This document shows positions 12,507 to 22,844 of a DNA stretch of 23,450 nucleotides, one piece after another. This DNA is from a virus. The notes under the pieces were generated by a model. It ran no database searches and was not told where the DNA came from. It saw only the letters and a list, made by a program, of their open reading frames with translations. Positions within the stretch are counted from its first letter, which is position 1, and the number at the start of each line of letters is the position of its first letter. The DNA lies in the IMG/VR virus record IMGVR_UViG_3300029448_000455, positions 1-23,450 of that record; one strand, 5' to 3'. Both the position numbers and the translations under genes were made by a program.

Positions 12507-12906
12507 AATTTGAAATTTCGTTGAAACTTTTAGTAGGATATAACTAGAACCCATTGACAATGCCTCGAGGTCTCGGGGGGTGCATACCATATATAGTATG
12601 CTTATTGCAAGTAATATTTTATTACAAAAAAAGCCTTATTTATAGCCGTTATTTTTTGTTGCATAATAACCATTATAAGAACGTTTTTGACCCACTACAT
12701 ATAGATCCCATAAAGGCTTGGTGGAAATGTATCTCTAGGACGTATACTTTTTAACTATATCAACGATTCTAGAGCATATATTCTTTAAAACATTAAACAT
12801 ATATTCTAATATTTCAAGGCATTTTATATATAATTTCAATATAATTGAAGGCTCACTACATACACAATCATAACTATATTGATTGCATACTTTACAGATT
12901 GTCATA
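12507..12906. other. Non-coding gap between small membrane gene and terL block
   Basis: About 400 A+T-rich bases have no credible gene. They hold a near-perfect 20-bp palindrome (12582-12601), a small dyad GTAAT-ATTTT-ATTAC (12611-12625) next to an A-tract, and two of the spaced GATTG motifs (12881, 12897). An interrupted tail of ATAT-rich sequence fills the rest. Because it separates terS from terL within a co-directional block, it is a reasonable place for a packaging site or a second late promoter. Neither is proven by sequence. Confidence 0.5.
12582..12601. promoter_or_regulatory. Near-perfect 20-bp palindrome, possible operator
   Basis: GCATACCATA followed by TATAGTATGC forms a dyad with one mismatched pair out of ten. 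It lies just upstream of the small gene that leads into terL. The ATACTATATAT core on the minus strand could also act as a -10 region. An operator or promoter role is inferred. Confidence 0.4.
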
Positions 12907-13011
12907 CTAAACTGATTGTATTACTACAATGATTGCTAATACGATTACACCTACTGTTATAGTCTTACCCTTCTTGTTAAGACCATTCCATTTATCTTTT
13001 AAGTAATTCAT
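12907..13011 (-). CDS. 34-residue single-pass membrane protein
   Basis: The ATG overlaps the terS stop codon (TAATGA), so the gene is translationally coupled. A charged N-terminus (MNYLKDKWNGLNKKGK) is followed by one hydrophobic segment at about 17-32 (TITVGVIVLAIIVVIQ). The basic side before the segment predicts a cytoplasmic N-terminus. It is far too short for a classical holin, but a minimal membrane-active role is possible. The function is unknown. Confidence 0.65.
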   Translation of the reverse strand: MNYLKDKWNGLNKKGKTITVGVIVLAIIVVIQSV

Positions 13012-14728: not shown

Positions 14729-15118
14729 TTATTTTTTTAACCAATTACCCCAAATTCTTTTACTTCGGTTGTAATAAATAATATCTGTATTGATGTCTCT
14801 TGAATTTTTAATATACATTTCGTAGACGATATCCCTAACAGTGGATCTGTTTAGACCATAAATCTTTGCGATTTCATTAAATGTTTTTTGATAAATACAA
14901 ATTTTTTTAAATAAATCTATATTCCTTTTGACTTTGCAAGTATTTTTACAATGTTTTTTATAATTAGTTTCAACAATCTGAACTTTATTTTTACGCAAAG
15001 TCCAATAAAATCTAGACCTACCGAGTGGACTACGAGTTAATTTTGCCAAATTGTTTCTCACATCTATTAATTCGTTCTGAACTATAAGCCGGCAACCAAC
15101 GACCCATTCTTTTTGCAA
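14729..15118 (-). CDS. Helix-turn-helix protein, possible regulator
   Basis: The reading from ATG 15118 is 129 residues long and overlaps the replication gene by 89 bases. A later GTG or TTG start near 15046-15058 would remove most of the overlap. The clear feature is a resolvase-like helix-turn-helix at about 78-100 (TFNEIAKIYGLNRSTVRDIVYEMY), with a basic, Cys-containing stretch before it (KKHCKNTCKVKRN). It probably binds DNA and may control the late block that begins just beyond. The target is unknown. Confidence 0.6.
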   Translation of the reverse strand: MQKEWVVGCRLIVQNELIDVRNNLAKLTRSPLGRSRFYWTLRKNKVQIVETNYKKHCKNTCKVKRNIDLFKKICIYQKTFNEIAKIYGLNRSTVRDIVYEMYIKNSRDINTDIIYYNRSKRIWGNWLKK

Positions 15119-15809
15119 ATTCCCAATCTTGCCTATCTAATTCTTTTTGATCTTTTTCTGTAATTATTTCTTCAGTTTCAACTACTTGGTCTAAATAACA
15201 TTCTGCGTTTAACCATGTGGCTGGGTGTTTTGAATACTTTGCGTTTTTATCACAATGTTGATTATATAAATCTTGTAGTATTAGAGGTTTGTTTTTCCAT
15301 TCGTCGGATAATTTGTTAAATGATTTTCTAGCTTGACCAACACCAATTTTATTTTTTATGTCTTTCCAAAATAACTCAAAACCAATCGGGTGAGGCTTAT
15401 TTATATTAGAAGAAGAAGAAGATGAAGAGGAAGAAGAAGAAGAAGAGAGAGCCTTCCTTGAGCTTACCTTGAGCTTACCTAAAGGCGACCTAGAGCTAAC
15501 CTCTATTCTATTCTTTTGTCTTTCACTATTAATTTTATATGTTTCTATTTGTTCTAATAAACCTTTATGATGATAATGATCTTCTTTTAAGATAAAAAAT
15601 TTATTTAAAACATATTTAACATTTACATTATCTAAATCAGTCTTAATAAATCTTGTAATAGTATTTTTATCGAGTCCTGTTTCTCTTTCGCACCAATATT
15701 TATTCATTAAACGAAAGTAAATACCCAGTTCTTCATTATTTAATTCCATAGTTATTGCTAATTCGTTTGAGGCATAACACTTAAAAAATGGTAGATCCAT
15801 TGAACTCAT
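15030..15809 (-). CDS. Phage replication protein, DUF1376/lambda-O-like
   Basis: The 259-residue protein has an N-terminal DUF1376/YdaU-type domain (about 1-95: LPFFKCYASNEL, ELGIYFRLMNKYWCE). A linker (about 98-134) ends in thirteen consecutive serines. The C-terminal domain (about 138-259) contains FELFWKDIKNKIGVGQARKSF and HPATWLNAECYLDQ, the usual ending of phage primosome or helicase-loading proteins. In lambda O the origin lies inside the gene; here the linker DNA carries an 11-bp repeat array. The start overlaps the preceding stop as ATGA. The role in replication initiation is inferred from family resemblance. Confidence 0.75.
   Translation of the reverse strand: MSSMDLPFFKCYASNELAITMELNNEELGIYFRLMNKYWCERETGLDKNTITRFIKTDLDNVNVKYVLNKFFILKEDHYHHKGLLEQIETYKINSERQKNRIEVSSRSPLGKLKVSSRKALSSSSSSSSSSSSSNINKPHPIGFELFWKDIKNKIGVGQARKSFNKLSDEWKNKPLILQDLYNQHCDKNAKYSKHPATWLNAECYLDQVVETEEIITEKDQKELDRQDWEFAKRMGRWLPAYSSERINRCEKQFGKINS
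15408..15451. repeat. GAA/TTC triplet homopurine tract (poly-Ser codons)
   Basis: Forty-four bases are all purines on the plus strand except one T at 15423, mostly tandem AGA/GAA triplets. They encode the 13-Ser run of the replication protein. Such tracts can slip in length or form triplex or easily opened DNA. Its position beside the 11-bp repeats recalls the unwinding region of phage origins, though its strands are not especially A+T-rich. Confidence 0.85.
15456..15510. repeat. Five 11-bp tandem units, candidate origin iterons
   Basis: Units begin at 15456, 15467, 15478, 15489 and 15500. The first two are identical (CCTTGAGCTTA), the fourth matches 9 of 11, and the third and fifth 6 of 11. 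Because 11 is not a multiple of 3, the units fall in different codon frames, so the repetition is kept at DNA level rather than protein level. The helical-turn spacing and location inside an O-like gene support an origin of replication. Confidence 0.65.
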
Positions 15810-16027
15810 AAGACCCTAAGACTCCCTGAACTAGCTGGTATATAATCTACCCAGCCTTTTCTTTTTAACTTAGCTAACAAGACACAGATATTGGATTTAA
15901 CGCACCCATACTCTTCAGCTAATTGTTGATACGTCGGCGATAAACCTTGATTGGCAAAATGTCTAACAACATCTAATAGTATTATTTGCTTTTTTGATAA
16001 GGGTATCTTACTCGGAGGATTAAGCAT
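15806..16027 (-). CDS. Stand-alone LexA-like winged-helix regulator
   Basis: A 73-residue reading from ATG 16025-16027 is chosen because AAGGAAA lies 5 bases upstream; an in-frame TTG 18 bases earlier is less likely. The sequence LSKKQIILLDVVRHFANQGLSPTYQQLAEEYG...NICVLLAKLKRKGWVDY follows the LexA DNA-binding domain, ending where that domain would end. No S24 protease domain follows. It is the first gene of the minus block, divergent from the CI-like repressor, so a Cro-like role or control of the replication-late block is plausible. Confidence 0.75.
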   Translation of the reverse strand: MLNPPSKIPLSKKQIILLDVVRHFANQGLSPTYQQLAEEYGCVKSNICVLLAKLKRKGWVDYIPASSGSLRVL

Positions 16028-16219
16028 ACTTTCCTTATTTATCAAGGTTTATCACCATAAGGAGATACAACGAATGACATGAGATTAATTTGAAATACGG
16101 GGATATTAAAAAAAAATCTCATTAATTTACTATAAGAAGGAAACTATTTATTAAAATAATTAATTTTATTACTAAAAGAAATCTTGAAACATTCTAGGAA
16201 ATAACTATATATATAATAG
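16028..16219. promoter_or_regulatory. Divergent control region between the two regulators
   Basis: It holds the start signals for the minus LexA-like gene and the plus repressor gene. Visible elements are a leader-like motif TTATCACCATAAGGAG (16049-16064) and an inverted pair ATGAGAT (16079-16085) and ATCTCAT (16116-16122). A nine-A tract follows, then the first 29-base direct repeat (16176-16204) with TTGAAA (16184-16189). A TATATA/TATAAT stretch (16206-16217) gives a promoter for the repressor. Transcription from it would start almost at the repressor ATG. Confidence 0.6.
16176..16204 (+). promoter_or_regulatory. 29-base direct repeat, copy 1 (candidate operator)
   Basis: It matches the copy at 16844-16872 at 24 of 29 bases, with core TTGAAACATT followed by GAAAT. 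It includes the -35 box of the repressor's own promoter, as expected for autoregulation. The match is seen; the operator role is inferred. Confidence 0.55.
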
Positions 16220-16822
16220 ATGTATGAAAGCTTAATTAATAAATTAAATAAAATAAAATTTGATTCCCGTTGTGATTGGAAAGAAATAGCTGAAAAATGT
16301 AATGTTTCTCCTAGTACCCTATCTAAATTTGTTAAAAATGAAAATAAATCTTTAGAGGTAAAAACACTTGAAAACATATTAAAATTTATAGGATCAGATC
16401 TAGAACAAGCAATAAAAGATCAGATTGACGGTTATAACTTTGAACATAATCTTGATAATATTGGTCATTATGCTGAGAGTGGTCAAGTATTTCCCCTTAA
16501 TCATGGAGACATAAAATCATATCAATGTAATATTTATTGGAAGGGTTACAAATGTATTACTTGTAAAGCCCAGCCCTTTTCAAATTGGTATGTAGCTTTC
16601 AAAGATAATATTGATAATGATATAAAAAATACTGATTATTATAACTGTCTATCGGTTGTGTATCAAAATGATGATAAAATTTTCATTGGTGTAGGAACTA
16701 AAAAAAATGATAATTTTAATTATATAAGTGGTGTTAATGGTCAACCTATTGAAATTACTAATAAAATTGAAGAAATAAAACATATTTTTCCCGTAGACGT
16801 TATCTTTAGCCCTCTAGCTTAA
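16220..16822 (+). CDS. CI-like repressor with degenerate S24-type C-terminus
   Basis: The 200-residue protein has a helix-turn-helix at about 20-42 (WKEIAEKCNVSPSTLSKFVK). The C-terminal half begins ESGQVFPLNHGD and ends ISGVNGQPIEITNKIEEIKHIFPVDVIF. The end resembles the last strands of alphaproteobacterial CI/S24-fold repressors, but the usual G-D-S-M and V-K-R catalytic motifs are absent, so self-cleavage is unlikely. No Shine-Dalgarno precedes the ATG, and the TATAAT box lies 2 bases before it. A leaderless mRNA is therefore likely, as for lambda cI made from its maintenance promoter. Flanking direct repeats suggest it controls itself and the plus operon. Confidence 0.7.
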   Translation: MYESLINKLNKIKFDSRCDWKEIAEKCNVSPSTLSKFVKNENKSLEVKTLENILKFIGSDLEQAIKDQIDGYNFEHNLDNIGHYAESGQVFPLNHGDIKSYQCNIYWKGYKCITCKAQPFSNWYVAFKDNIDNDIKNTDYYNCLSVVYQNDDKIFIGVGTKKNDNFNYISGVNGQPIEITNKIEEIKHIFPVDVIFSPLA

Positions 16823-20806: not shown

Positions 20807-20881
20807 GCTGGCGTAACTCATTGGTAGAGTGCATTCTTGGTAAGAATGAGGTAGGAAGTTCAATTCTTCTCGCCAGCACCA
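20807..20881 (+). tRNA. tRNA-Thr (anticodon GGT), CCA encoded
   Basis: All four arms fold. The acceptor is GCTGGCG with CGCCAGC, the D arm ACTC with GAGT, and the anticodon stem CATTC with GAATG around loop TTGGTAA (anticodon GGT). The T arm is GGAAG with CTTCT around TTCAATT. Discriminator A and genomic CCA follow. It begins on the base after the integrase stop codon. It may be a phage-carried functional tRNA or a tRNA completed by the attachment core. Confidence 0.93.
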
Positions 20882-21405: not shown

Positions 21406-22011
21406 ATGATGATACAATCTTATGGTGCTAATGAGATATCAGAACAATTAAGTATATCTCAACAGTATCAAAAAAAAATGAGAAGCACTTATGGAAAGGT
21501 CAATAGACAATTTCCTAAAGAACTTCCTTACATAACTAAAGAAGAAGCATTTAAGGGTTATAAACTTTTAATGATTAAGTTTGGTAAAAAGAAAGTTAGA
21601 AACTTTTCTAATACTAAATGGATTACAAAAAAGTTAATAGCTAGAAGAACAAGACCTAGAAGGTGTTGGATTGCCTTATCAGGCGATTCAAGTTCTCTTT
21701 GGAAAGGTTGGCGTAGATTAATCCATGATGTTTCACATAGGATCTATGATTTTCAAAATCCAAATGCTAGTAGAGATCATTCTCAAAAACAAGCAGAGAT
21801 TGAACTTGAAATAGGTCAATATGTTATGGATCAAGGTTGGTTAGAGGGAAAGTTAAAACCTAAAGCTAAACCAATCCTAACTAAAGAAGAAAAGGTTGCT
21901 AAAAAGATAAGCAATTTTGAGAAACTTCTAAGTAGGTGGGAAACTAAACAAAAAACTGCTCACACCTACATTAAGAAGTATAAAACAAAGATAAAACGAC
22001 TAAGTAAATAA
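21406..22011 (+). CDS. Basic protein with metallopeptidase-like HDxxH...H motif
   Basis: The 201-residue protein is strongly basic, especially at 58-85 (KFGKKKVRNF, KKLIARRTRPRR) and after 150. The central segment WKGWRRLIHDVSHRIYDF then RDHSQKQAEIELEIGQYV carries H107-D108-x-x-H111, H125 and E131/E133. This spacing recalls the zinc site of small metallopeptidases such as SprT-like proteins, with Asp in place of the usual catalytic Glu. A ribosome-binding AAAGG precedes ATGATG. DNA-associated proteolysis or simple zinc binding are both possible; the function is unproven. Confidence 0.55.
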   Translation: MMIQSYGANEISEQLSISQQYQKKMRSTYGKVNRQFPKELPYITKEEAFKGYKLLMIKFGKKKVRNFSNTKWITKKLIARRTRPRRCWIALSGDSSSLWKGWRRLIHDVSHRIYDFQNPNASRDHSQKQAEIELEIGQYVMDQGWLEGKLKPKAKPILTKEEKVAKKISNFEKLLSRWETKQKTAHTYIKKYKTKIKRLSK

Positions 22012-22163
22012 ACTTAAGCCATATCACAATTTTATATATACCTAAATATACTCAACAATATTAATATTTAATACCGACTGTGCTAAATTTGTGCAAATTA
22101 TTATTTCCCATTATGTTCTATTATAGAAAAACCATTGAGAAATAACGAAACATTTTAAAACAT

Positions 22164-22189
22164 AGTGGGTTATTTTTTAGCCCACTTTT
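22164..22189 (+). terminator. Intrinsic terminator
   Basis: AGTGGGTTA (22164-22172) pairs with TAGCCCACT (22178-22186) around a five-T loop, with one T-G pair, followed by TTT. It ends the transcript of the 201-residue gene or of a short RNA from the promoter at 22089. Confidence 0.7.
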
Positions 22190-22280
22190 CAACACTTCTA
22201 CCGATAAACAACAAAAAATCTTTCTTGGTAAGGAAGAACCACCCTATTATCTAGCAATATCGCCGTTCTATTGTGATAGA

Positions 22281-22309
22281 TTGTGCAAATAATTTATTGG
22301 AAATAATAA
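22281..22309 (+). promoter_or_regulatory. Sigma-70-type promoter for the 163-residue gene
   Basis: TTGTGC (22281-22286) and TAATAA (22304-22309) are separated by exactly 17 bases and point at the gene starting at 22353. The predicted start near 22316 gives a leader of about 37 bases that contains the repeated leader-like element. Confidence 0.6.
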
Positions 22310-22352
22310 GAAAAAATGCTACTTTTACTCATCAACTATATGGAGACGAACA

Positions 22353-22844
22353 ATGATTAGTAAAATAATAAGCCTTCAAGCCTTTAACAGAAATTTTCTT
22401 TTTGATTTAATACCCGATAGAGGACGTATCTATGTGGCGATTAAAATCTTTAAATTTCGCACTGTTAAAACATTAACTCTACCCAAGATCCTTAAAAAAC
22501 CTTTTATGTATACTAGATTTTTTTCTTATTACATAAAAACATTTTTTAAATATTCTTTATTTGTATTTCCTATTTATATTATTAGAAAAGAATACGATTA
22601 TGTCGATCATGCGTCCTCAAGCTATCCGGAAAAATATAATACCGGTTTTTCTTTTTGGTGGAATTACCATAAAGACGAATTAAGAGAATTTTTTAGCCCT
22701 AGAGATATCGACTGCGGATATAATCTTTATGTAGATTTTATTTCAAGAGAAGAATATCTAGATAGTGAGTCTTCTAGCCGTGATTATATGTTAGAAGCTT
22801 ACGAAAACGGACACCCTAGCAGTATAAATACGGGGGGTTATTAA
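22353..22844 (+). CDS. Hypothetical protein, aromatic and basic N-terminal half
   Basis: The 163-residue protein is not recognised. The N-terminal half (about 1-95) is basic and rich in Phe, Ile and Tyr (VAIKIFKFRTVKTL, RFFSYYIKTFFKYSLFVFPIYIIRK). That stretch includes a hydrophobic run at 69-77 that could touch the membrane. The second half is acidic and Tyr/Ser-rich. GGAG lies 8 bases before the ATG. Its stop overlaps the next start as TAATG, so the two small genes form a unit. Confidence 0.6.
   Translation: MISKIISLQAFNRNFLFDLIPDRGRIYVAIKIFKFRTVKTLTLPKILKKPFMYTRFFSYYIKTFFKYSLFVFPIYIIRKEYDYVDHASSSYPEKYNTGFSFWWNYHKDELREFFSPRDIDCGYNLYVDFISREEYLDSESSSRDYMLEAYENGHPSSINTGGY

Follow-up and report, generated by a model that had tools for sequence, protein, structure and literature searches.

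A 23,450-nt stretch of virus record IMGVR_UViG_3300029448_000455 (IMG/VR, positions 1-23,450; hereafter "the window") probably encodes an initiator of the lambda O type that carries the origin of phage replication within its own gene, with proposed iterons and a proposed unwinding tract written into linker codons. Five contiguous 11-bp units and an adjacent G-free tract are maintained at the DNA level, and both lie in the codons of a disordered linker. From this arrangement we infer binding of the units, opening of the tract, and origin activity. The first-pass annotation had proposed a self-contained initiator-origin unit, a reading that is now supported at the sequence level by the persistence of the unit register among homologues and by the lambda O-like layout of the gene.

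A DUF1376-type initiator with a repeat-bearing linker

The gene (15030..15809, minus strand) encodes a 259-aa protein that matches PF07120 (DUF1376) over residues 18-88 with 32.4 bits (E 1.2e-7), above the curated Pfam cut-off of 30.1, as well as the PHROG families phrog_9327 ("primosomal") and phrog_270 ("replication initiation"). For the DUF1376 N-domain (residues 6-103; 15501..15794, minus strand), AlphaFold predicts a winged-helix-like H-H-H-H-E-E-H arrangement, with a pLDDT of 82 and a pTM of 0.70 when the domain is modelled alone. Since Foldseek searches with the whole protein and with the N-domain returned no significant match and only weak ones, many of them to winged-helix proteins, this fold rests on the model and is unconfirmed; a PDB sequence search likewise gave no match. 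A helical C-domain (residues 141-207; 15189..15389, minus strand; pLDDT about 85) is delineated by the phrog_9327 match, which spans residues 125-210, and by a 36% match of residues 135-211 to the replication initiation protein of Gordonia Dardanus. Together with the phrog_270 match, these similarities identify the C-terminal recruitment-type domain common to known initiators. Residues 101-139, which lie between the two domains and are encoded by the array and the tract that follows it, are modelled with low confidence and presumably form a disordered linker. The window thus holds repeated sites between the two domains of an initiator gene, and this succession of N-domain, disordered linker with repeats and C-domain agrees with the initial suggestion of a lambda O-like placement within a DUF1376-type protein.

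An 11-bp array that is out of codon frame

The array occupies 15448..15502 (minus strand; identified by TRF and lag-11 tests) and consists of five units with the consensus AGGTNAGCTCN, proposed as iterons and running out of codon frame. Read on the coding strand from 15502 down to 15448, they are AGGTTAGCTCT AGGTCGCCTTT AGGTAAGCTCA AGGTAAGCTCA AGGAAGGCTCT. The array had originally been framed at 15456-15510; it is real, but its best five-unit frame lies 8 bp away, so that the last unit of the former frame (15500-15510) falls outside the array, while a further good unit at 15448-15458 had been left out. The description of five units, two identical, one matching at 9/11 positions and two at 6/11, was confirmed, as were the positions of the GAGC core at 15449, 15460, 15471 and 15493.

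Exactly three copies of AGGTNAGCTC are present in the 23.45-kb window, each of them inside the array. None of 2000 dinucleotide shuffles reached the lag-11 score of the array, which stands at 0.464 over base composition, versus 0.221 for the next best 55-mer of the window at any of the out-of-frame periods tested; it is by far the window's strongest out-of-frame periodic array. The same score was reached by 0/5000 synonymous recodings of the same peptide, with the gene's own or with flat codon usage; the protein therefore does not explain the 11-bp period, just as the first-pass annotation had argued that protein selection would not yield one. A generic repeat-cluster score was not significant for the window's gene (17/100 shuffles reach the same score), being weak here because the gene is AT-rich, and the period-specific tests are the decisive ones.

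Register is kept among homologues while residues diverge

IMG/VR relatives of the gene fall into two groups, one including L001, L005, L006, L014 and L015 (the first three sharing about 59% protein identity with the window) and the other L002, L003, L007, L008 and L009 (about 50%). All 10 of these homologues carry five units in the same 11-bp register, the unit there being AGGTNACCTC. The check originally proposed, an alignment of homologues in which the period should persist while the amino acids vary, thus had a positive outcome: register is kept in these ten and in a further family member, L174, and residues diverge. In window-versus-other comparisons, conservation of the array residues falls below that of the remaining protein (7-9/19 vs 48-60%), with array DNA about equally or more conserved (65-74% vs 56-67%). 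Residues that are identical between two proteins also retain identical codons more often in the array and tract than elsewhere (Fisher p 0.011, 0.0054, 1.7e-5 and 9.9e-5 in four pairs); for the array alone, the corresponding values are 0.13, 0.18, 0.0093 and 0.013. Recodings, homologue comparisons and codon use accordingly place the array sites under selection at the DNA level and not via the protein. At unit position 8, G is present in 4/5 window units, and nearly all of the relatives' units have C, a difference that runs in parallel across codon frames, as would be expected for sites following one binding protein.

In L001, L006 and L003 as well, no 55-mer of the entire locus scores higher for 11-bp periodicity than the array. 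A scan of IMG/VR (2.9 million viral contigs) with the DNA pattern only returned 13 stretches, 7 of which lie in the DUF1376 gene family of the window, and L174 was recognized as a new member of this family by the DNA pattern alone. The window's own G-type unit pair gave 0 matches in an IMG/VR scan. A genome-contig scan with the window's family as query found no relatives, and the same scan with YdaU as query found 18. Single conserved AGGTAAGCT sites were also noted outside the array, at L001:3111 and L001:7951 with matching sites in L005 and L006; by position, these lie in other phage genes, an exonuclease-like and a small-terminase-like gene.

A G-free tract beside the array

Directly after the array, the coding strand lacks G for 55 nt (15397..15451, minus strand; CTCTCTCTTCTTC...TCTAATATAAATAA), a stretch that encodes poly-Ser and that we propose as an unwinding or single-strand element. 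TCT accounts for 11/13 of its Ser codons, compared to 24% of Ser codons elsewhere in the window (P 7e-6), and the G-free run is longer than in 96/100 synonymous shuffles. The same tract is found in both other clades of relatives. The 40-mer of lowest stability lies at or near the tract in L001, L006, L003, L127 and L120, and away from it, at 0.24 of the gene, in the window's own gene. Relatives use other G-free repeats, e.g. AACCA.

In-gene repeats across the DUF1376 family

DUF1376 genes from E. coli Rac, from named phages and from unselected genomes of one phylum were grouped into 42 clusters at 50% identity and compared to 26 neighbouring ORFs as controls, with a repeat cluster considered significant when it lay beyond at least 99/100 synonymous shuffles. 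Significant in-gene repeat clusters were detected in 24/42 DUF1376 clusters vs 1/26 control ORFs, and 22 of these 24 sit at 0.37-0.56 of the gene; the other 18/42 clusters have none. Unusually long G-free runs were observed in 13/42 clusters, all at 0.43-0.58 of the gene, vs 1/26 controls. Across the linkers of all 42 clusters, lag 11 is the strongest (mean z 2.15) and lag 22 the second, with multiples of 3 averaging a z of 0.2. Without the window's family, the lag-11 mean is still 2.02 (Wilcoxon vs lags 8, 10, 13 and 14, p about 8e-10). No lag-11 peak is seen in the C-terminal third of the genes, and the N-terminal third has just a small one (z 0.81). The units themselves differ completely in sequence, for instance TTCAACGACCG (in Rahnella, a Moraxella phage and others), CCAACGGCGTT, GCAATGCGAAC and GCAAATGCAAT (in a Rhizobium phage), and the layout of N-domain, linker repeats and C-domain recurs across the family.

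Extra domains were observed near the linker of several DUF1376 genes, namely the ydaU variants L090-L099 (about 1197 bp), L113 and L137. The insert of the ydaU variants is nuclease-like in look, and the L113 and L137 segments resemble GIY-YIG-type domains by eye; the linker seems to be a preferred insertion site.

Genome context

Directly upstream of the initiator gene, with a 4-nt overlap, lies a gene for a 79-aa LexA-DBD-like winged-helix protein (15806..16045, minus strand; PF01726, E 2.5e-5). This protein, also retained in L001 and L003, has a match to the wHTH part of phrog_270 and is an alternative candidate binder of the units. The 79-aa and DUF1376 proteins jointly match this one PHROG initiator family, as if a one-piece initiator elsewhere were divided between two genes here. 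No helicase or helicase loader was recognized within the window, and the gene directly downstream of the DUF1376 gene has no PHROG match in the window, L001 or L003. In several DUF1376 relatives, the next gene does encode a helicase loader, P protein or replicative helicase; such an adjoining gene is a trait of the lambda module and not of in-gene origins as such. The cumulative GC-skew minimum near 16000-16500 agrees with an origin here but coincides with divergent transcription.

One other candidate origin was considered and rejected: the 17-bp repeats at 12881-12942 (GATTGTNATACTAAA) are imperfect and lie in an intergenic AT-rich stretch, and TRF reports no array at the equivalent position of L001 or L003. 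To the right, a complete tRNA-Thr (GGT; 20807-20881) starts right after the integrase stop codon, and the ORFs beyond it (21406-22844) have no PHROG match. The window may represent an integrated prophage with its attachment site at tRNA-Thr and host DNA to the right.

Proposed mechanism and competing explanations

We propose that the initiator would bind the units side by side on one DNA face through its winged-helix-like DUF1376 domain; participation of the small upstream winged-helix protein in unit binding appears less likely. The resulting nucleoprotein complex would strain open the adjacent G-free tract, with one strand held by the initiator, and the C-domain would then recruit the host replicative helicase or its loader. 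As a single gene would hold both initiator and site, specificity and site would travel and change together.

Among other readings, an operator is unlikely but the most credible. The units would then be bound, by the 79-aa protein or by the initiator, solely for control of operon transcription or translation, consistent with a LexA-DBD-like protein being encoded just upstream and conserved along with the array, and with the pseudo-palindromic character of the units (AGGTNACCT). The array is however intragenic, about 300 bp past the start codon, and the upstream intergenic region contains no unit match; DUF1376 genes whose neighbours are quite different share its position and 11-bp period, and an adjacent G-free tract would not be expected of an operator. 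Formation of mRNA structure for translational control is the least plausible alternative and can be given hardly any weight: adjacent units of L001 can pair and the L003 fold reaches a z of -2.6, yet shuffled sequences fold just as well as the array of the window (z +0.27), and relatives differ in their predicted folds.

The two remaining explanations start from the linker itself. Tandem repeats might gather in disordered linkers by slippage under relaxed selection, with poly-Ser as a microsatellite, and both the disorder in the AlphaFold model and the variable length of the poly-Ser tract between relatives fit this view. Frame-keeping slippage would nonetheless produce multiples of 3, which are precisely the lags that show next to no signal across the family, where 11 and then 22 dominate; neutral repeat growth is thus a poor explanation, as it cannot readily make an 11-bp period. 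In addition, the units stay in register and show a parallel change at one of their positions while residues diverge, and we consider this scenario improbable. Selection on an 11-residue peptide repeat (KVTNSEPLGNL / KVTSSEPLSS) is more improbable still. Three units span 33 bp, and the linker peptide is therefore itself repetitive, as this explanation would have it, but synonymous recodings almost never restore the period (0/5000 for the window, 0-15/5000 for relatives), and where the window is compared to the others, divergence is greater in the linker peptide than in the remaining protein, with no such excess in the DNA.

Implications for the DUF1376 family

An origin within the initiator gene, our preferred reading for the window, may extend further. 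We tentatively suggest, as a possibility that we still regard as doubtful, that the DUF1376 family at large consists of self-contained initiator-origin genes, whose linker codons would comprise 11-bp, one-turn iterons and a strand-biased G-free element, free in sequence as long as the register is kept; here, the triplet tract would imitate a DnaA-trio/DnaD element and may recruit host initiation proteins. In Pfam, DUF1376 is entered as a domain of unknown function, and the family spans phages and prophages of several bacterial groups. A frame-independent, position-specific 11-bp signature would allow its members to be predicted as initiators, each with a predicted origin within its gene. In-gene origins would also account for odd low-complexity peptides (poly-Ser, KPLTNNQEP, TDTDTD, SPSPSP) as read-through of origin DNA.

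Comparison with known systems

Lambda iterons are 18 bp long, and the contiguous 11-bp units described here differ from them in being shorter. Other differences from lambda are the DUF1376 N-domain, the G-free TCT tract, and the fact that no P-like gene was recognized in the window. In lambda and Stx phages, the origin lies in the middle of gene O and includes iterons and an AT-rich tract (PMC7466680); the window resembles this in that its proposed iterons also sit in mid-initiator gene, within the linker that joins the DNA-binding and recruitment domains, and precede a proposed unwinding tract.

The Rac prophage gene ydaU, also a DUF1376 gene, carries GTTCAAAC-type repeats in its linker and is followed by ydaV, which encodes a putative ATP-binding protein, and the C-terminal part of YdaU matches the lambda-O homologues of Gifsy-1/2 at 47%. 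Unlike the window's gene, ydaU has a different unit sequence and no clean 11-bp array. The Rac prophage has an active origin, oriJ (PMC3945230), the placement of which within ydaU was not found in the portions of the literature searched. In Bartonella, a run-off replication origin located inside an O-like gene was recognized by a GC dip and palindromes and has been portrayed along the same lines as that of lambda (PMC3610622); the passages covered describe no 11-bp period, and the paper does not mention DUF1376.

A further parallel is found in B. subtilis oriC, where a DnaD recognition element (DRE) lies opposite the DnaA-trios, its strand CTACTATTACTTCTACTA having regularly spaced TnnT and no G (PMC10201434). 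There, duplex-binding boxes are followed by this strand-specific element; the order of boxes and then tract is similar in the window, and the TCT repeats of the tract (TCTTCTTCT) give TnnT every three bases, much like the B. subtilis DRE; this resemblance to the DRE and DnaA-trios is a lead only. Across the titles, abstracts and passages covered by our full-text search of non-subscription literature, no origins in DUF1376 genes were described. Taken as a whole, the principle is that of lambda, and the novelty lies with the DUF1376 family, the 11-bp period of contiguous units and the recurrence of a G-free element.
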